IMG/VR virus record: IMGVR_UViG_3300044730_002015
Coordinates: 105,525 to 169,524 of that record
DNA length: 64,000 nt
Strand: one strand, 5' to 3'
Source: a virus
Program-made: the position numbers and the translations under genes
In this document: one piece after another, positions 1 to 42,860 of the stretch
Layout: every line of letters begins with the position of its first letter
Position numbering within the stretch: position 1 is the stretch's first letter
The notes under the pieces: model-generated
What the model was told of the DNA's origin: nothing
What the model saw: the letters and a program-made list of their open reading frames with translations, nothing else
Databases searched by the model: none

Positions 1-1382
1 GACTTGGCCCAGCCCTGGCTTTTGCCAGCAGCTATACTGGCACAATGACTGCCGTGTCCGCCGCTGCCCGATGCCGGATCAGGATTCATGGCATCGCCGA
101 GATATCCCCCAATGCTGACGCTAGTGGGAACACCGGATACGCCCAAGGATGCCCAATCCATGGCCTGTACACGAGTGGCCGCTCCTGTGGCCATATAACT
201 GCCCTGCGCGGCATAAAATGTATTGGCCACGCCGGTATTGGCAGTGGACCAGTTGACAGCGTCTGAACTGACTACCGCTGCGCCATTTTGCCCCAGGGCC
301 AGACATTGACTGCCTACCGTGGTCACACAAAATAGATCAGCCACTGTGGCGCTGGTTCTCACAGTCCAGGTACTGCCATTGTTGGTGCTGGTCAAGATAC
401 AACCACCGCGACCTACTGCTATCAGGGTCGAACCAATGACGGTTATGTCATGCAAGCCACAGGTCACACCAGAAGTTTGTCTGGTCCAGGAAGTACCATC
501 ATTGGTGCTGACTATGATAGTACCATTATCGCCAACAGCAAAAAATCTACTGTTAATATAACGCACACGATTTAGATTATAATTCAAAGGAATATCAAAT
601 GCAGTGGTGATCTGCTGCCAGGTGGAACCATTGAATCTCAGGATCAGTGCTGTGGGCGCAATGATATTATTATAATTAAATCTGCGAAAACTATATCCTG
701 GTGTGCCCACTGCTACCAAAGCGGTGCTGCTGGCCGCTGCACCGCGCAATTGTTTAACAGCATAATTGTTATCTGTACCATAAGGCGTGACATCACTCCA
801 GACCTGGCCAGTGGTGCTGGTTAAAACTTTTACGCCGGGACCGCGGGGCACAGGTGCTTGCGAAGTGTCACTGCTGTAAAATCCACCCACTGCATACAGG
901 CGATTTTGAAACACAGTGACGTCAGACAGCATATAATCTTTGGCATTTTGTATCATGAGATTATTAAATCTTATTTCTCCATGATCACCCACTGTCACTG
1001 TGTTATTATTGTATCTAATGATGCCGCGGAAACTGTTGAGAGTAGACACAGCGGATTCAGCAAAGGCAGCGCCATCGTAAGTGACCAGGCTGCTGTCGCT
1101 GTTTTTTATAAATTCTGGATGATAAGCGTCTACACCAGTGTCGGCGATTAAAAAATCCACGCCTGTGCCATCCAATTGATAGCTGTATTCACCGGGTATG
1201 ACAAATCCCGAGTTGGGCTGTTGTGGCCAAGGCCAGGGATTATCTTTAAGTATGTGGCGAAGCAGTCCCCAATTGATGTCAGTGGCAGTGACATTCTGAT
1301 TTTGCCGATCAAAATTATCAGTTTGTTCAACAGATTGAGGATCAGGACGACTGAATAATCCTGGTTGTGAATTAGTGGTCAT
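1..1382 (-). CDS. subtilisin-like serine protease with a large insert (runs off the window)
   Basis: The frame is open from an ATG at 1382 to the window edge, about 460 codons. The Asp motif of S8 peptidases is seen as 'FLIADTGVDAYHPE' (Asp near residue 81), and the His motif as 'GGHGSHCASIAAG' (His near residue 443). The Ser motif must lie beyond the edge. In ordinary subtilases these two residues are about 30 apart; here about 330 extra residues separate them. The insert holds repeated units such as 'FFAVGDNGTIIVSTNDGTSW' and 'AVGRGGCILTSTNNGSTW', which look like BNR/Ycf48-type beta-propeller blades. The start overlaps the stop of the preceding propeptide-like gene (ATGA). Next to a fibre gene, it is probably a virion-associated protease. 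The family call is firm; virion location is inferred. Confidence 0.85.
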   Translation of the reverse strand, partial: MTTNSQPGLFSRPDPQSVEQTDNFDRQNQNVTATDINWGLLRHILKDNPWPWPQQPNSGFVIPGEYSYQLDGTGVDFLIADTGVDAYHPEFIKNSDSSLVTYDGAAFAESAVSTLNSFRGIIRYNNNTVTVGDHGEIRFNNLMIQNAKDYMLSDVTVFQNRLYAVGGFYSSDTSQAPVPRGPGVKVLTSTTGQVWSDVTPYGTDNNYAVKQLRGAAASSTALVAVGTPGYSFRRFNYNNIIAPTALILRFNGSTWQQITTAFDIPLNYNLNRVRYINSRFFAVGDNGTIIVSTNDGTSWTRQTSGVTCGLHDITVIGSTLIAVGRGGCILTSTNNGSTWTVRTSATVADLFCVTTVGSQCLALGQNGAAVVSSDAVNWSTANTGVANTFYAAQGSYMATGAATRVQAMDWASLGVSGVPTSVSIGGYLGDAMNPDPASGSGGHGSHCASIAAGKSQGWAK

Positions 1383-1597
1383 TGGTGAAAAGGCGGTATT
1401 TCTATAATCAGTCCCGGCCAATCACTGGGGTGTGGCTGTACATCTGCTACTCTGGGATCTTTCAGCAGCTGATCTACATCGGCCGTGGACACCAATATAT
1501 TGGTAAGACTGCCAGGCTCTGTGTCAATGATACTGGGCAGTGTCATTAATAATTCTTGCTTGTCCTCTGGACTGCGGGCCGTGACATAATAACGCAT
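1379..1597 (-). CDS. stand-alone I9-type propeptide/inhibitor of the adjacent subtilase
   Basis: A 72-residue protein that starts 'MRYYVTARSPEDKQ' and has 'LLKDPRVADVQPHPSD' near residue 50. This matches the layout of subtilisin propeptides (I9 fold), which end in a short strand with a 'DPrVa-V-pD' pattern just before the mature enzyme. Here the domain ends at its own TGA, and the protease begins in the overlapping ATG. Its start overlaps the stop of the fibre gene (TAATG). The likely role is a foldase and temporary inhibitor made in trans. The fold assignment is from pattern only. Confidence 0.65.
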   Translation of the reverse strand: MRYYVTARSPEDKQELLMTLPSIIDTEPGSLTNILVSTADVDQLLKDPRVADVQPHPSDWPGLIIEIPPFHQ

Positions 1598-4185
1598 TAT
1601 ACCGCCGTGCCATCAAAATATCTCCAGCTGCTGCCATTGTAATACGCTGGACGATTGGTAGAGCTGATGTAAATTATCGCGCCGGCAGCAGCAGTTGGCA
1701 GTGCGCCAGTGGTATAAGATGCTAATTTTACCGGAGCGTTGGCTGTGATTTGATTTAAAGATCTGAGATTTAAATTGCCTACAGCAGTGATATTTAAATT
1801 GCCGCCGCCGGGTGCCGCACCTGTGCTGATGAAATTGTTGGCGGTAACTGTGCCCGTGAACGATGCTGCCACGCCTGTGATATTGGCATTGGCAGTGATG
1901 GTGCTGGCATACACAGCGCCGTAGTGTGCGCCTACCAAGGTGCCATTGATGCCACCTGACGCTGTGACAGTGGTGGCAGAAATCGTGGGCACAGACAGTG
2001 TGTTGCTGCTGCGATTGTAAGTGAAGTTGTTAGACGAACCCAATATTCCTGAATTGTTGTACTGGATCTGTGTATTGGATCCAGATGCTCCGCTGCCACC
2101 GCCTCCGCTGATGTTGGCCAATATGCTCTGACCATTGGCATATACAAACACGTCAGATACAAATCTGGCTGCTGTGACATTGCCTGTGGCAGTGAGTTGC
2201 CCGCTGGTGTAGGTCAGGCCAGTGGCCGCGGCAAGATTGCTGCCGTCGGTGATCTGCAGTGTGTTGGCTGTGCCCTGCGCGGTACTGTAACGCAGTCCTG
2301 ATCCTGTTCTCACAGCGCCTGTGATGGTGACATTGCCGGCAGTGATGTTGCCTGTGTAGGTGGGCAGATAAGCAGCCACGTTGGCGTTGCTGTAGTTGAT
2401 GTTGGTTAGATTTGAACCATCGCCAATGAAATAAGCAGCCGAAACTGTGCCAGTGACATTGGCCTGTGCAGCGCCCACGTTGCCGGCTGTTCTCAGTCCA
2501 CCAGTGGCCGAAATCAAGTTGCTGGTAGACACAGGTACTACCAAACTGTTTAGTATGGTTGGCACATAGCCCTGTACATCAATATTGCTGTAAGTGGCAT
2601 TGACGGTAACTGTGCCCAGGCCCGTGGGCGGCGATATGGTCACTCCGGTTCCGGCCAAGATCTGATTGACATTGCCACCTTGTATGGTGATGTTGCTGCC
2701 ACCGCCGGTAAAGGGTGTGCCGTTGGCATAGTAATAATTGTCAGTGTGTATGCTGGTGGTGCGCACAGTACCGGTCACAGTCAAAGTGTCAGTGACGTTG
2801 CTGCGATAGCTGAATACTGTGCCGCTGGCGATCACATTGCCAGCAGCGATATTGCCTGTGTAAGTGGGCAAATAAGCAGCCACATTGGCATTGGCATACT
2901 GCGTGGGCAGGCCTGTGAGTTGGCTGCCATTGCCCAGCACATATCCAGCTGACACATTGCCCGACACTGTGACATTGCCGGCTGCAACATTACCGGTGTA
3001 GACCAGCAAATAAGCAGCCACATTGGCATTGCCGTAGTTGTTGTTTAGGCCAGTTAAAAATGCTCCGTTGCCCAGCAAATAACTGCCGGCGATATTGGCC
3101 GTGGTGGTGACATTGCTGGTCAAGCCAGTGAGATAATTGGCTACGTTGGCATTGCTGTAGTTGATGGTCACACCAGTGAGCAATGCTCCGTTGCCCAGGA
3201 AATACAGCGCCTGCACATTGCTGGTATTGTTGGGCAATACCACGCCAAATCTTGCATCTACGTTGGCATCACCGTAGTTGCTGGTCAGCGTGACCATGCC
3301 TTGCCCGGTGCTGGGCGTGACCACGATCTGGCTGTTGCCCGAAGTGATTTGTGTAACACCTATGTTGGCAGTGACATTGCCATTGCCGCCAAAATTGATC
3401 AGATTACCATTTTGATCATAATATGCCGCGGCTCTGATGCCTTGTGTGACGATACTGGTGGCAGTCAATGCTGTGTTGGCCAGGATATAGTTAAATTGCG
3501 CACTGGCTCCTGTTATAAGATTCACGCCTTTGATGGTATTGACTGTGAGATTATTGACGTTTTGTATGCTGGTGGGATTCAATGTGCCAGAATATGTAGG
3601 CAGATAATTGGCCACATTTTGATTATTGTAACTGCTGACAATGCTGGTGCCATTGGGATATAGATAATTGGCAGCGGTAACAGTGGTGGCAGTCACTGCC
3701 GGCACAGTCATAAGACCAGTGCCGGGATTGTAGGTCAGGCTGGCATTGGCTGACAGCGCGGTATTGATATTGTATTGTATCTGATAGTTGCCGCCCGCGG
3801 CCTGCACCGCGGCACTGGCATAGGTCCAGTACAGTTGTCCGTTGCCACGTGTGGCTAAAAACTGGCCATTTAATCCGCCTTGTATGCTCACATAGGCATT
3901 GCTGGGCAATATCACGCGGCCCGTGCCCCTGGGAGCTATCTGTATGTTGCCATTGGTTCTGCTGGTGCTGCTGATAAGACTGGTGTTGTTGCTGGCACTC
4001 CAGGTCATGGCCAGATTTGAATCTGTGTTGGCTGTTCTACTGGTTATGACCAGCGCTGTGCCGTTGATGGGGCCTACATTGGCCAGTTTACGGAAATTGT
4101 CGTTGACTTTTTGCAGTGCGGTGCGTAATGGATCACCGTCGCTGGCATTGGCTCGTGTTCCTACATTGATCAGTTGGAATGGCAT
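1597..4185 (-). CDS. repetitive tail fibre / virion structural protein
   Basis: 862 residues, rich in Asn, Thr, Ala and Gly and poor in Cys, made of repeated beta-type units such as 'YANANVAAYLPTYTGN' and 'AGNVTVSGNV'. The N-terminus 'MPFQLINVGTRANASDGDP' with 'ALQKVNDNFRKL' is the type found at the base of fibre and neck proteins of marine T4-like phages. The C-terminus 'AGAIIYISSTNRPAYYNGSSW' is a common fibre tip module. The ATG at 4185 follows a late-type promoter and lies at the foot of a hairpin. The next gene starts in its stop codon. It probably contacts the host surface; which tail part it belongs to cannot be told. Confidence 0.8.
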   Translation of the reverse strand: MPFQLINVGTRANASDGDPLRTALQKVNDNFRKLANVGPINGTALVITSRTANTDSNLAMTWSASNNTSLISSTSRTNGNIQIAPRGTGRVILPSNAYVSIQGGLNGQFLATRGNGQLYWTYASAAVQAAGGNYQIQYNINTALSANASLTYNPGTGLMTVPAVTATTVTAANYLYPNGTSIVSSYNNQNVANYLPTYSGTLNPTSIQNVNNLTVNTIKGVNLITGASAQFNYILANTALTATSIVTQGIRAAAYYDQNGNLINFGGNGNVTANIGVTQITSGNSQIVVTPSTGQGMVTLTSNYGDANVDARFGVVLPNNTSNVQALYFLGNGALLTGVTINYSNANVANYLTGLTSNVTTTANIAGSYLLGNGAFLTGLNNNYGNANVAAYLLVYTGNVAAGNVTVSGNVSAGYVLGNGSQLTGLPTQYANANVAAYLPTYTGNIAAGNVIASGTVFSYRSNVTDTLTVTGTVRTTSIHTDNYYYANGTPFTGGGSNITIQGGNVNQILAGTGVTISPPTGLGTVTVNATYSNIDVQGYVPTILNSLVVPVSTSNLISATGGLRTAGNVGAAQANVTGTVSAAYFIGDGSNLTNINYSNANVAAYLPTYTGNITAGNVTITGAVRTGSGLRYSTAQGTANTLQITDGSNLAAATGLTYTSGQLTATGNVTAARFVSDVFVYANGQSILANISGGGGSGASGSNTQIQYNNSGILGSSNNFTYNRSSNTLSVPTISATTVTASGGINGTLVGAHYGAVYASTITANANITGVAASFTGTVTANNFISTGAAPGGGNLNITAVGNLNLRSLNQITANAPVKLASYTTGALPTAAAGAIIYISSTNRPAYYNGSSWRYFDGTAV

Positions 4186-4212
4186 ACTCTAAAGAATCCT
4201 TTAGAGTATTTA
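4185..4212 (-). promoter_or_regulatory. late-type promoter box with a hairpin enclosing the fibre gene's ribosome site
   Basis: On the minus strand a TAAATA box (4207-4212) is followed by a perfect 10-bp inverted repeat (4185-4194 with 4199-4208, 4-base loop). The Shine-Dalgarno AAAGGA sits at the stem top and loop, and the far arm ends on the first base of the ATG. The fold could limit ribosome access or protect the 5' end. The structure is seen; the regulatory role is inferred. Confidence 0.55.
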
Positions 4213-4225
4213 GCGGTTTTGGATT

Positions 4226-4537
4226 TTACACGCTAAAGGAACTGCCGCAGCCACAGGTGGTAGTGGCGTTGGGATTGATGATTTTGAATTCTGCACCCAA
4301 CACAGATTCTGCATAGTCAATGGTGGCGCCCTGTAGATATTGCATACTCATTGAGTCTACCAACACACCATCTATGTTGTAGTCGTCCTCGGCTGTGTCT
4401 GCGTCAAAGGTAAATCCATACTGGAAGCCAGAGCAGCCGCCACCTTGCACAAAAGCACGTACCCGCAGTTTGTCATCATTTTCTTCAGCCAGCAATTGTG
4501 TGATTTTGTTTCGGGCAGATTCCGTGATATTAATCAT
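4226..4537 (-). CDS. A-type iron-sulfur carrier (IscA/ErpA/HesB family)
   Basis: About 103 residues from '[12 protein letters not shown]'. The three cysteines of A-type carriers are present: 'GGGCSGFQY' and the C-terminal '[10 protein letters not shown]'. Family members accept Fe-S clusters from a scaffold and pass them to apo-enzymes in the cytoplasm. The ATG at 4537 overlaps the end of the SOD gene; an upstream ATG at 4564 would overlap it by 35 bases and is less likely. Possible clients nearby are the phage's radical-SAM enzymes and BFD-like protein. Family is secure, client choice is inference. Confidence 0.92.
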
Positions 4538-5093
4538 TTTGGTAGGCCTGTCCCCAGCGGGCATTGATCACATTCCAGTCAAATATTTTCCATATATTTG
4601 CGAGATATTGTTTTTTATCGCTTTGATAATCCAAGGCCCAGGCGTGTTCCCACCAGTCCACCAAGATTAAAATATCATCGCGCACCTGGTGATTGGGTAT
4701 GATTTTTATATCCCCAGATCTGGCCAGATAAACCCAGCCCGATCCCTGCACAGTCATGGCCTGTTTTTGGAATTGTTGTTTGAACTCCTCCCAGGATCCA
4801 AATTTAGCGTTGATCATGCTGCCAATGGGACCGTTGGGGCGATTGTTGTTGCGCGATTTTCTAAACTGTGGGAAAAATAAATTGTGTAAAAAAGCACCAG
4901 CGTAGTTGAATTCCCTATCGCCTTCATCTTTATTGAATCGATCAGCATAGCCGTGGGCCAATTTGCCATAGTGATATTCCATGGTCCGGGCACTCATAAC
5001 GGGATTCAAATCCGAATCTGTGTAGGACAGTTCTACAATACCTATGTCCTGTGGTCGGCTTTTTTCTTCTAGTAAGGTGATTATTTCACGCAT
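4530..5093 (-). CDS. Fe/Mn-family superoxide dismutase
   Basis: 187 residues with all four metal ligands of the family: His41 in '[13 protein letters not shown]', His70 in 'GAFLHNLFF', and Asp146 plus His150 in 'VDWWEHAW'. The family core 'GSGWVYLA' is also present. It converts superoxide to oxygen and peroxide in the cytoplasm. No signal peptide is seen. Metal preference cannot be judged by eye. It lies between IF-1 and the Fe-S carrier. The ATG sits exactly 5 bases after a TAAATA box with no clear ribosome site. Confidence 0.93.
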
Positions 5094-5098
5094 GACTC

Positions 5099-5104
5099 TA
5101 TTTA
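5099..5104 (-). promoter_or_regulatory. late-type TAAATA box, 5 nt before the SOD start
   Basis: TAAATA on the minus strand with a 5-base gap to the ATG at 5093. In T4 numbering the last A of the late box is -6, so +1 would be the A of ATG. Confidence 0.5.
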
Positions 5105-5105
5105 T

Positions 5106-5321
5106 TTAAAGTCTGCGTGTGACTCTGCCCTTGGTTAAATCGTAGGGTGAAAATTCCACTTCCACGCGATCGCCTGCCAGCACCTTGATGTTGTACTGGC
5201 GCATTTTTCCTGAAATATGTGCTGTGATTTCCGCGCCCTGGTCCAGGCGCACACGGAACATGGCATTGCGTAATACTTCGGTGACTTGCCCTTCTAGTGT
5301 AAGCGAGTCTTCTTTACTCAT
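5106..5321 (-). CDS. infA: translation initiation factor IF-1
   Basis: 71 residues, the normal IF-1 length, with an S1/OB fold. The signature 'MFRVRLDQG' and '[20 protein letters not shown]' followed by '[17 protein letters not shown]' matches bacterial IF-1 almost end to end. IF-1 binds the A site of the 30S subunit and works with IF-2 and IF-3 in start-codon choice. A phage copy could bias initiation on viral, perhaps leaderless, mRNAs (inference). It is followed at once by SOD and preceded by a 37-residue membrane peptide. Confidence 0.96.
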
Positions 5322-5326
5322 AAAAA

Positions 5327-5440
5327 TTAATGATTTTCATTGGTTTTATCTAAGATCTCCATGATACTTCTCACCACTACGTATATGGCTGGCATTCCCA
5401 CTGCTGTGGCTACTGCTACTAACAAGAACACGTCATTCAT
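5327..5440 (-). CDS. 37-residue single-pass membrane peptide
   Basis: An ATG at 5440 with a strong AGGAGA site reads '[20 protein letters not shown]' and on to 'KTNENH'. One hydrophobic segment spans residues 4-24, followed by a short charged tail. It stops five bases before the IF-1 start, so the two are probably co-transcribed. No function recognised. Confidence 0.6.
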
Positions 5441-5479
5441 GATTGCTCTCCTAGTGTGTGTTACTTATTTACGGTTTTG

Positions 5480-6298
5480 CTAGACTTCAATTAACTTTGG
5501 TTGCCACTGATCAGCACGGGCTTCGTAGCCCACATAGCCACGTGGGTTACACACGATCCTGGTACGCCCAATTTCATAGTCAAAATCCTCGTGGGTGTGC
5601 CCGTGGGTCCACAGGCAGATTTCTGGACGGTCTAAAATGAATCCGTCCAGGTGAGAACTGTAACAGCCGTTCATGAGCACTTCGTTTTGATAACGAGCGT
5701 GTGTGCTTTGTCTGCTGGGCGAGTGGTGCCCTACCACGATCACACGATCTGAATGCTCTCCCCGGGCTCTGCGATCGTCAATGGTTTCTTTAATATATTT
5801 CAACATGGCTTCATGATCAGCCAGTGCATCCTGGGGCAGGAATCTCCAGGAGCCACCTGCTGCTCCATTGGCAGAATGTTTCACACCTTTGAAATCGTGC
5901 ATCATGCTGCCAGCAGCAGTCAAGGTCAAGGGATCGTTGCCGTTGAAATCAGTCCATAAGGTACCACCAATAAACACATAGTCATCGATCTCAACTGACT
6001 GCTTGTCCAACACATGGAAGTTGTCATAGTCTGCCACTGCGGCACGGATGATGTCTGTGCTTTTGCAGAAGTCACCGTGATAGTGTTCGTGATTGCCCAG
6101 GATCATGACCACCTGGGGGAACAGGTTGTGGCACCTGTGCAGGAATGCCTGGCTCAACACACCGCGTGGATTCATGGTTTCTATATCTCTAGCCACCAGG
6201 ATATCGCCCGACAGGATCAGCACATCTACATCGTGACGATTTTCAAGATCCAGATCACCAAATTCTAGATGGAGATCGCTGGTAACATACAATTTCAT
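5480..6298 (-). CDS. calcineurin-like metallophosphatase
   Basis: 272 residues with the metal-binding motifs of the family in order: 'SDLHLEF', 'LSGDI', 'ILGNHEHY', 'VVGHHSPS' and 'THGHTHEDF'. These carry the Asp, His and Asn ligands of a two-metal centre that hydrolyses phosphomono- or diesters. The substrate is unknown. It starts in the stop of the preceding gene. A second family member lies at 39713. Confidence 0.9.
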   Translation of the reverse strand: MKLYVTSDLHLEFGDLDLENRHDVDVLILSGDILVARDIETMNPRGVLSQAFLHRCHNLFPQVVMILGNHEHYHGDFCKSTDIIRAAVADYDNFHVLDKQSVEIDDYVFIGGTLWTDFNGNDPLTLTAAGSMMHDFKGVKHSANGAAGGSWRFLPQDALADHEAMLKYIKETIDDRRARGEHSDRVIVVGHHSPSRQSTHARYQNEVLMNGCYSSHLDGFILDRPEICLWTHGHTHEDFDYEIGRTRIVCNPRGYVGYEARADQWQPKLIEV

Positions 6299-6690
6299 TA
6301 TCGTCTCATGTGTGCTATGTCAATGGCTTCATCGTCGGTGAATATAGGCACAGCATTGGATTTGTGCAAGGTACCAATGCCTTTGATCTTGGTGCCAGTA
6401 TATACCTTGTCAGCAGGCCTAGCGGCCACTCCCACGGTATCGGCCTTGCTGGGTATGGCCTGCGGTTCACGTCCAGGTGGATATTGCGGTGACACTGATC
6501 GGGCGGGGGTTGCCGGTAATTTGCTGGTAGCGAACTGGGGAGCCAGTTTGGCCCACTCGGCGCGGCGCTGTTGCCACTCGGCCTGCAGTTCGCGTTCTTG
6601 CTGTGCGGCCGCCGCCGAGGCATACTTGCGTCGTTTGGTACGCCACTTGCCCGTGGTGGTCAACCAGGGTCCTTCCAAGTGCATGGTCAT
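6298..6690 (-). CDS. hypothetical protein, basic and Ala/Gln-rich
   Basis: 130 residues. The N-terminus 'MTMHLEGPWLTTTGKWRTKR' is followed by a helical charged stretch ('QQERELQAEWQQRRAEW') and a C-terminal part 'TGTKIKGIGTLHKSNAVPIF'. It overlaps both neighbours by stop/start sharing, which supports it as a real gene. Similar short proteins occur in marine myophages; no function is known. Confidence 0.7.
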   Translation of the reverse strand: MTMHLEGPWLTTTGKWRTKRRKYASAAAAQQERELQAEWQQRRAEWAKLAPQFATSKLPATPARSVSPQYPPGREPQAIPSKADTVGVAARPADKVYTGTKIKGIGTLHKSNAVPIFTDDEAIDIAHMRR

Positions 6691-39712: not shown

Positions 39713-40498
39713 ATGGCCTTTGCATTTGATCTTATTTCGGATCTGCACGTTCTTCCAGAAGATGACTTCTCCTGGGAAGGTCAAGCCACCAGCCTGATTG
39801 CCATAGTGGCCGGAGATGTCAGCAAAGATCGGGCCACTACTGTTGCTGTGCTTAAAGAAATAGCATCCAAGTACCGACAAGTTTTTTATCTGGATGGCAA
39901 CACCGAACACAGGTACTTCTTAGATGATATCCCGGCCAGCATAGAAGATCTTGAAAACGAACTCAATGTCATTGAAAATTTGGTTTATCTAAACAACAAG
40001 GTAGTGATCAGCAATGGCATCGCTATACTTGGTACCAATGGTTGGTGGGATTACGAATTTGACCAGACCGACGACATTGAGCAAAGTTTCAATTTCGTCA
40101 CAGACACTTACAAGATCACCAGAGATGCGGCCTATAAACTCTTGAGCCTGGCATATCAAGATGCTGCTTATCTCACACGCAGTATTGAAAAACTACAAAG
40201 GCACAGAGATGTCAGTCGTATCATTGTAGTAACGCACACCTTGCCTCGAGCCAGTTTGGTTCAACACGACCCAACCCTGCAAGGAACTTACAAAATGGGC
40301 CTAATGGGCAATGCTGGTATGCAGGCTGTGCTGGATGCAGATACCGAAAAGAAAATCACACATTGGTTATTTGGACACTACCACGGACGTGTGGATCAGG
40401 CCATTGACGGTGTAAGATATATCAACAATCCGCGTGGTAGGGTTTCAGATGTACTGCATGATCCTTATCATCCACTAAGGATCAGTATACAGATTTAA
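39713..40498 (+). CDS. calcineurin-like metallophosphatase, second copy
   Basis: 261 residues with 'LISDLHVLPEDD', 'VAGDVSKD', 'LDGNTEHRY', 'VVTHTLPRAS' and 'WLFGHYHGRVD', the full set of two-metal phosphatase motifs. 'RYINNPRGR' near the end is shared with the family member at 5480 ('RIVCNPRGY'), yet overall they are distant. Substrate unknown. Divergent from the 39627 gene and convergent with clpS. Confidence 0.9.
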   Translation: MAFAFDLISDLHVLPEDDFSWEGQATSLIAIVAGDVSKDRATTVAVLKEIASKYRQVFYLDGNTEHRYFLDDIPASIEDLENELNVIENLVYLNNKVVISNGIAILGTNGWWDYEFDQTDDIEQSFNFVTDTYKITRDAAYKLLSLAYQDAAYLTRSIEKLQRHRDVSRIIVVTHTLPRASLVQHDPTLQGTYKMGLMGNAGMQAVLDADTEKKITHWLFGHYHGRVDQAIDGVRYINNPRGRVSDVLHDPYHPLRISIQI

Positions 40499-40803
40499 CT
40501 TTCGTCGGGCTCTAGCCGTACCTGCAAGGGATAACCATTGGTACGAGCATTGAGCGTGACTTCTATGCCTTTTTGTTCTGCGATTTCATAGGGCAGCACC
40601 GCAACAGTGGCCGCGCCCTGCGTATGGATATCCACTGTGATCTTTTCGGCTGTTTCGTAACTGTAACGGAAATGCTCTATCAGGCTTTGGATCACAAATT
40701 CCAGCGTGGTTTGATTGTCGTTGATGTATATGACCTTGAACATAGGTGGTTCTTTAAGGTCTAGATTCTTTTTGATTTCTGTTTTAACGTCAGCCAATCC
40801 CAT
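40495..40803 (-). CDS. clpS: ClpS-like N-degron adaptor
   Basis: 102 residues. 'MFKVIYINDNQTTLEFVIQS' and 'ATVAVLPYEIAEQKGIEVT' follow the ClpS fold closely, including the Asn-Asp of the N-degron pocket and the 'YEIAE' helix. ClpS brings proteins with destabilising N-termini to ClpA (ClpC in others). No ClpA is seen here, so it may act with host ClpA or block it. It lies two genes from clpX. Ribosome site AAAGGA. Confidence 0.88.
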   Translation of the reverse strand: MGLADVKTEIKKNLDLKEPPMFKVIYINDNQTTLEFVIQSLIEHFRYSYETAEKITVDIHTQGAATVAVLPYEIAEQKGIEVTLNARTNGYPLQVRLEPDES

Positions 40804-41431: not shown

Positions 41432-41659
41432 TCAATACAGTTGTTTGGGAAGTTGTTGACTGGACAGTTGTTTTTTCCAACGACGCACGGCCTGTTTTTT
41501 CTTTTGTTTGCGTATGACATTGGGTTTGGTATATTCCGCGCGGTCGCGAAGTTCCAGCAGTAGTCCGGATTCTTGGATTTTCTTTTTAAATTTACGCAGG
41601 GCCTTTTCCACATTGCCGTCGGGCACTATCACACTGCGTCCATACAATTTAGCACTCAA
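41432..41659 (-). CDS. rpsU: ribosomal protein bS21
   Basis: 75 residues: 'VPDGNVEKALRKFKKKIQES' and 'RAEYTKPNVIRKQKKKQAVR' fit bS21 well, with a basic C-terminus. bS21 helps the 30S subunit choose start sites. Phage copies are known in large aquatic phages and may replace the host protein. The start is TTG at 41659 inside the end of clpX, with GGGAG before it. Confidence 0.93.
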   Translation of the reverse strand: MSAKLYGRSVIVPDGNVEKALRKFKKKIQESGLLLELRDRAEYTKPNVIRKQKKKQAVRRWKKQLSSQQLPKQLY

Positions 41660-42860
41660 GTTTAAATTCTCCCAGGGGTTTGGGATCCACCACTAGATCC
41701 CGTGTGATATTTAGTGATTTAATGTTCTGTTTATGATATTGTCTAGCATAAAACATATGAGGTTGTAGGATACGCTCCATTTCAGCGTGCAGGCCCCTGG
41801 CTCCCGTTTTGAGTTTCAATGTGCGTTCGGCTATTTCATCAAGTGCTGTATCTTCAAAATTCAATTCAATTTTGTCAAGATCAAAAAGAAACTTGTACTG
41901 ACCTGTGTAACTATTTTTAATTTCGGTCAGGACATAAATCAACTGCTGTTTGCTTAATTCTTGGGTAGCACAGTAACTGACAAAACGTCCAATAAATTCT
42001 GGGATCAGTCCAAATTTAATTAGATCATCGGGAATACATTGGTTCAGCAAATCCGCATTGGCCTGTGTGCGAACTCGTCCCTGGAATCCAATGGTGCTTT
42101 CACTCACACGGCTTTGGATGATCTTGTCCAAGCCTACAAAAGCACCGCCTGCTATGAACAGGATGTTGCTGGTATCTACTTCAATCATTTCGGCTTGTGG
42201 ATGTTTACGATTTCCTTGCCCGGGCACACGACATTTGGTACCTTCTACCAACTTCAGCAAGGCCTGCTGTACACCTTCGCCCGAAACATCTCGACTGATA
42301 CTGGCGCTTTCGCTTTTTCTAGAAATCTTATCAATTTCATCGATAAACACTATACCGCGCTCGGCACGAGCCACATCTCCCTTGGATTGCTGTAGTAATC
42401 TACTAATCATGGTTTCCACATCATCGCCTACATAGCCTGCTTCGGTGAGACTGGTGGCATCAGCGATGACAAAAGGTACATCTAGGTATTTGGCGATAGT
42501 TTTAGCCAATAGTGTTTTACCAGATCCTGTGGGACCAAGGACCAGCACATTAGACTTTTCAACTTCGATGCTTTTGACATGATTGTCGATTCGTTTGTAA
42601 TGATTGGTCACTGCTACACTGATAGAGATTTTGGCCTGCTCTTGTCCAATTACATATTGATCAAGATACTGTTTGATAGCAGTGGGGTCTAGTTCTATAG
42701 ATTTTACTTCTTTATCTTCAAGTTTTTCTTCTTTGAGAAGATCATCACAAAAAGACACACACTCGTTACATATACCAACATCTGTACCGACTATGAGTTT
42801 TTTTACTTGATCTTTGTGCTTGCCACAGAAACTACAGTTATCGAAGGTTTTATTGGTCAT
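41649..42860 (-). CDS. clpX: ClpX, ATPase of the ClpXP protease
   Basis: 403 residues, complete. Zinc-binding domain with Cys9, 12, 31, 34; Walker A 'GPTGSGKT' at 109-116; pore loop 'AGYVGDD' at 141-147; Walker B 'IVFIDEIDK'; RKH loop 'GQGNRKHPQ'; 'STIGFQG' near 257 is the IGF loop that docks on ClpP; sensor-2 'TGARGLHAE'. So it should bind a ClpP, either the phage ones at 24400 and 24999 or the host's. With ClpS it makes a nearly full proteolysis set. Begins directly after the stop of the 42861 gene. Confidence 0.97.
   Translation of the reverse strand: MTNKTFDNCSFCGKHKDQVKKLIVGTDVGICNECVSFCDDLLKEEKLEDKEVKSIELDPTAIKQYLDQYVIGQEQAKISISVAVTNHYKRIDNHVKSIEVEKSNVLVLGPTGSGKTLLAKTIAKYLDVPFVIADATSLTEAGYVGDDVETMISRLLQQSKGDVARAERGIVFIDEIDKISRKSESASISRDVSGEGVQQALLKLVEGTKCRVPGQGNRKHPQAEMIEVDTSNILFIAGGAFVGLDKIIQSRVSESTIGFQGRVRTQANADLLNQCIPDDLIKFGLIPEFIGRFVSYCATQELSKQQLIYVLTEIKNSYTGQYKFLFDLDKIELNFEDTALDEIAERTLKLKTGARGLHAEMERILQPHMFYARQYHKQNIKSLNITRDLVVDPKPLGEFKLEC

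Follow-up and report, generated by a model that had tools for sequence, protein, structure and literature searches.

A large freshwater phage encodes a subtilase of a known phage protease kind, PHROG 9158, that has two derived features, namely a propeptide split off as a gene of its own and a predicted β-propeller inserted between the catalytic Asp and His. On balance, we lean toward the reading that this protease of a baseplate/tail-fiber gene cluster had its I9 domain split off into a coupled gene acting in trans, received the propeller as an insertion, and is located on the tail. The separation of propeptide and protease is itself quite probably real in the phage.

Organization of the locus

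The analyzed window is the whole stretch of 64,000 nucleotides forming the final 64 kb of a 169,524-bp IMG/VR virus record (G000), and its base 1 falls within the protease gene. The genes concerned lie on the minus strand. A fiber/baseplate-type protein of 862 aa (1597–4185) is encoded directly upstream of a stand-alone ORF for a small I9-like subtilase propeptide of 72 aa (1379–1597), the start of which overlaps the stop of the 862-aa gene as TAATG. The S8 subtilase gene follows from the ATG at 1382, with the N-terminal 460 of its 797 residues in the window (1–1382) and the remainder outside it at G000:C1:104513-105524, the protein ending at G000:C1:104513. As the preliminary description of this DNA had stated, the 72-codon gene meets the protease gene in the sequence ATGA (1379–1382), where the propeptide stop and the protease start overlap.

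The protease and its family

The 797-aa protein is a putative enzyme of the peptidase S8 subtilase type and is complete, with Asp81, His443, Asn583, and Ser702 in the motifs IADTG, GHGSHCA, SSAGN, and SGTSMASP. The Asp81 codon (1140–1142, minus strand; motif IADTGVDAYHPEF) and the His443 motif (39–59, minus strand) lie within the window, while the Ser motif, NKLSGTSMASPQ, was found on the same record past the window edge, where the preliminary description had proposed to look for it. The HMM search for PF00082 that it had also proposed returned the protease with E = 1.7e-23 and 83.8 bits against a cut-off of 21.8, and the PHROG 9158 profile matched residues 434–759 (E = 2.4e-44). In the alignment with relatives, the triad D81/H443/S702 and the oxyanion residue N583 are conserved.

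Cyanophage members of PHROG 9158 carry the annotation “peptidase” or “subtilisin-like serine protease,” and three scans of IMG/VR yielded about 240 loci of the family. In 229 ORFs, I9 domain and Ser motif share one frame, without a split linker in any; nineteen further I9-bearing ORFs stop before Ser, most of which are contig-end cuts as judged by position. The Asp, His, and Ser residues are kept in 229 of the 231 ORFs in which all three positions could be aligned, and the Asp position, taken as invariant in the family alignment, is D in 229 of these 231. Apart from the cases with insertions, the Asp-His spacing of the relatives is 38–83 residues (median 47). The window protease departs from the fused N-terminal I9 of the family, since its I9 domain occupies a separate ORF. 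The earlier view that a separate propeptide is unusual was thus borne out, with none of about 230 relatives split, and the combination of a split propeptide with a propeller was likewise absent from the approximately 230 related phage genes checked. A FastTree tree placed the window protease well within the family, at the end of a long branch (tip length 1.20 vs. a median of 0.32) and far from the other members bearing inserts. One of the nineteen ORFs that stop before Ser (L346:3498-5010) has lost its His motif through a deletion/frameshift, either by decay of the gene or by faulty assembly.

The 72-aa protein

The 72-aa protein is predicted to have the I9 subtilase-propeptide fold. Its model (pLDDT 84.2) shows the order E-H-E-E-H-E, and a Foldseek search against the PDB returned mostly subtilase propeptides (top probability 0.98, E 0.06), including those of Tk-subtilisin, furin with the PC1 prodomain, BPN′, subtilisin E, and CspA/CspC, the E-values lying near 0.1 because the I9 fold is so small. 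A profile derived from 68 N-terminal domains of the family was run against the 72-aa ORF, 500 shuffles of it, and the other ORFs of the window. The 72-aa ORF was the top match at 15.5 bits, the stop-to-stop reading of this ORF came second at 15.3 bits, and a shuffle followed at 6.8 bits. A chance origin of the ORF was ruled out by this test. With tblastn against 50,697 phage records, the sole match was a weak one (E = 0.3) to the N-terminus of the subtilisin-like protease of the cyanophage Sf-FR1, covering residues 17–72. The I9-like nature claimed for this protein in the preliminary description therefore stands on the profile match and the predicted fold, whereas the HMM search for PF05922 proposed there was negative, as was the rest of Pfam; even the fused relatives match PF05922 in only 2 of 24 cases (best E 0.056).

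The insert between Asp and His

The spacing from Asp81 to His443 is 362 residues compared with the family median of 47, corresponding to about 315 extra residues. The position between Asp and His given in the preliminary description was correct, but its estimate of about 330 extra residues was slightly above this value. Alignment to relatives without the insert places it after HPEF and before RVQAMDW, at about residues 97–400 (183–1094, minus strand). Matches to the Pfam BNR/YCF48 models stayed below threshold, with PSII_BNR (PF14870) reaching 20.9 bits against a gathering score of 27. An AlphaFold2 model of residues 90–405 (mean pLDDT 72.6) consists of repeated blades forming a propeller of about 6–7 blades, three of which are predicted with high confidence (pLDDT 88 or more in the blades at model residues 181–300), and its N-terminal edge has low confidence. 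Many YCF48 chains were among the best solved matches of this model in Foldseek (E near 1e-8, TM up to about 0.6), and its viral matches included the baseplate wedge initiator of S-SSM7 and BNR proteins. The insert sequence also matches cyanophage baseplate wedge initiators, with 38.8% over about 130 residues in S-CAM9. Aligned with its relatives, the propeller proved too diverse for the alignment to guide a scan of the collection. The insert is accordingly predicted to be a YCF48/BNR-like β-propeller, in agreement with the earlier assignment.

By analogy to subtilisin, the insertion point just after HPEF is presumably at the protein surface and remote from the cleft. Given this presumed position, and since the relatives of the module are baseplate and tail proteins, anchoring or adhesion appears a likelier role for the propeller than the gating of substrate that had been suggested before.

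None of the 229 relatives with a fused I9 domain carries a propeller in this loop. A different domain of about 310 aa, apparently helical by eye, occupies the same Asp-His loop in two other lineages (L273:3492-5996 with L274, and L283:3495-6359 with L280). This domain gave no convincing match in Pfam or the PDB, but it is also present in a protein of the cyanophage S-RIM2 (about 1713 aa), the gene for which lies between baseplate genes. Because the loop holds a propeller here and a different domain in two further lineages, it reads as an insertion hotspot for tail-type modules in the PHROG 9158 family.

Gene context and virion location

The protease gene has a baseplate/tail-fiber location, lying within a long run of giant fiber-like genes. 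The N-terminus of the 862-aa upstream protein resembles the protein encoded upstream of the S-CREM1 protease (BLASTP, 47% over 49 aa, E = 2e-5), and a baseplate/fiber or tail gene context is also found in S-CREM1, S-H38, P-SSM2, and Sf-FR1. The depositors annotated the homologue in S-SCSM1 as “virion protein,” and the S-SCSM1 group reported 45 virion proteins by mass spectrometry (PMC9602691). In view of this gene context and of the S-SCSM1 annotation, a virion location of the protease is likely in the window's phage, by analogy.

Several giant tail genes stand in a row in the record, among them a fiber-like ORF of 3863 aa with repeated GN-rich units (G000:C1:57001-75524; L096:5284-16875). Beside the protease, the region 4226–5321 (minus strand) encodes an A-type Fe-S assembly protein, an Fe/Mn superoxide dismutase, and a 71-aa protein of PHROG 30201 that is IF-1-like by eye. 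Farther along the window are a ClpX-like protein (41649–42860, minus strand; PHROG 4339, 2.6e-96), the N-terminal region of which putatively resembles a zinc finger, and near its gene a small protein that is ClpS-like by eye (40495–40803).

Also encoded by the record are a DNA polymerase of the T4 type and a 497-aa protein, conserved with PA5oct-like jumbo phages (L093:1402-2895 and 3809-6487), which suggests that the record is a fragment of a larger phage. The DNA polymerase has many relatives at about 70% identity. No match to the protease was obtained in 24 records sharing the polymerase, a search without a positive control among fragments that may lack the region. A 320-kb relative identified by its DNA polymerase also had no match to the window protease, and the protease gene is therefore probably accessory. 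A Pfam search for the gp23 capsid protein gave no match, but the control was equally silent.

Origin of the split

The ancestral gene was almost certainly fused, as judged from the sequence, because one additional base in a T4 run of the linker (1388–1391, minus strand; AAAA on the plus strand) would join the two frames and both sides of the break resemble the unbroken linker of the relative L068 (APFSSQTGLF). Since all other family members are fused, the split is most simply a derived state. A one-base indel, real or artefactual, in the linker of a gene that was fused in the ancestor accounts for it, an explanation that the preliminary description had not considered. The T4 run is the candidate site of either an ancestral frameshift or a sequence error. 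The effect of every one-base indel in the linkers of the fused relatives was simulated, a test chosen after the case had been seen. A stop adjoining or overlapping a protease-frame ATG arose in 0.5% of the simulated indels, and 13% gave any usable ATG in the protease frame ahead of the catalytic domain. The ATGA coupling would hence be unexpected from random error. Moreover, frequent indel errors in the record are unlikely because its giant ORFs of 3863, 1754, 1730, and 1457 aa are unbroken. The rarity of stop/start overlaps among random linker indels and these intact ORFs together favor a real split.

An assembly error that broke an ordinary fused pro-subtilase gene at the T4 run would account for the fused state of all relatives and for the continuous frame, with an L068-like linker, that an extra base in TTTT restores (PPFSPMTTNSQPGLF). 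The one-base frame break comes from a single assembly, and no second copy of the locus was found in IMG/VR by exact-peptide scans with both proteins and a homopolymer-tolerant junction pattern, while the protease query returned only propeller look-alikes from GTDB genomes. Against these points stand the simulated frequencies and the intact giant ORFs, and we consider such an artefact unlikely, though the likeliest of the alternatives. The missing ribosome-binding site before the protease was dropped as a sign of error, as most genes of this phage have no obvious one. A real frame break could also yield both fused and split products through −1 frameshifting or leaky reinitiation, so that the propeptide would act both covalently and in trans. 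Relative to the propeptide, the protease is indeed read in the −1 frame, and two codons ahead of the stop there is a TTT codon that follows a T, but the junction (CCG CCT TTT CAC) contains no canonical X XXY YYZ slippery heptamer and the adjacent ATGA start is sufficient, making a dual product improbable.

It is more improbable still that a recent frameshift left a decaying pseudogene whose propeptide and protease no longer work as a pair. The broken relative L346 and the long branch of the window protease would fit such decay; however, the 797-aa ORF is open and retains the catalytic residues and the family-invariant positions, and the I9 ORF is intact with its conserved core. Subtilase prodomains both fold and inhibit their enzymes, and the targets of stand-alone propeptide-like inhibitors keep propeptides of their own. 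The 72-aa protein might act chiefly in regulation, as an inhibitor of the SUB1-ProM or POIA1 type, and not as a folding chaperone, with the protease folding alone. Such stand-alone inhibitors are known (PMC6993865), but the window protease has no propeptide of its own and the domain is covalent in all relatives, so that we give this role a small chance. The favored reading, a real split with action in trans, has its own difficulties: although intact, the protease half could lack activity or rely on infrequent frameshifting, and the family does include broken copies such as L346.

Proposed mechanism

In the favored reading, an ancestor with an N-terminal I9 propeptide fused to its catalytic domain would have received a YCF48-like β-propeller within the surface loop between Asp and His. 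A break of the reading frame in the linker would have left the propeptide with a gene of its own, coupled in translation to the protease gene. Propeptide and protease would be produced together at about 1:1, with the propeptide serving in trans as a folding chaperone and transient inhibitor. The protease would thus be born already “pre-cleaved” and become active upon loss or degradation of the propeptide. With the enzyme located on the virion tail, the propeller may anchor it to tail structures or bind the host surface, and the enzyme may cut surface proteins or process tail proteins. We infer in this scheme the split in the living phage, the action in trans, the virion location, the role of the propeller, and the substrate. 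The earlier proposal that supply in trans allows the timing of activation is plausible by analogy. A more specific version, in which a naturally split pro-subtilase is activated by release of its noncovalent propeptide on the assembled tail and the Asp-His loop is a general docking site for tail-type modules, is tentative, and we would not yet bet on it.

If the split is real, this subtilase is a natural example of an enzyme that obtains its only propeptide from a different gene, and a ready two-component system for studying folding in trans and activation. The family itself is a large, little-studied group of tail-cluster proteases with over 200 loci, the loop of which takes whole adhesion-type domains. 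Because it accepts such domains, the targets cut by tail proteases become directly testable.

Comparison with known systems

The closest relatives are the PHROG 9158 proteins of Kyanoviridae, such as those of S-CREM1 (UYA57622.1), S-H38 (QPB07966.1), P-SSM2 (PSSM2_297), and S-SCSM1 (SSCSM1_228). The window protease shares with them a catalytic domain about 30–40% identical, the triad, the motifs NWGL, RGxxP, and GTSMASPQ, and a gene position among baseplate/fiber genes, but in the relatives the I9 domain is fused and Asp and His are mostly 38–83 residues apart. The propeller resembles those of baseplate wedge initiators, in sequence for S-CAM9 and in predicted fold for S-SSM7; YCF48/BNR propellers of phage baseplates and tails are elsewhere part of structural proteins, whereas here the propeller is nested inside a protease.

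Clostridium CspB is likewise a subtilase with an inserted β-domain, and its prodomain stays bound and, when supplied in trans experimentally, folds its enzyme specifically (PMC3567191); in contrast, CspB has a jellyroll of about 130 aa as its insert and a naturally fused prodomain. Small I9-fold proteins encoded apart from a catalytic domain are known as Plasmodium SUB1-ProM, which adjoins subtilase genes, Toxoplasma MIC5, POIA1, the yeast peptidase B inhibitor, and Arabidopsis subtilisin propeptide-like inhibitor 1 (PMC6993865). Unlike these, the separate protein described here is apparently the sole propeptide, split from its own protease. The lipase-specific foldase Lif is also a separately supplied steric chaperone, which its authors group with the subtilisin propeptide (PMC3352829), but it is periplasmic and unrelated in fold and enzyme.
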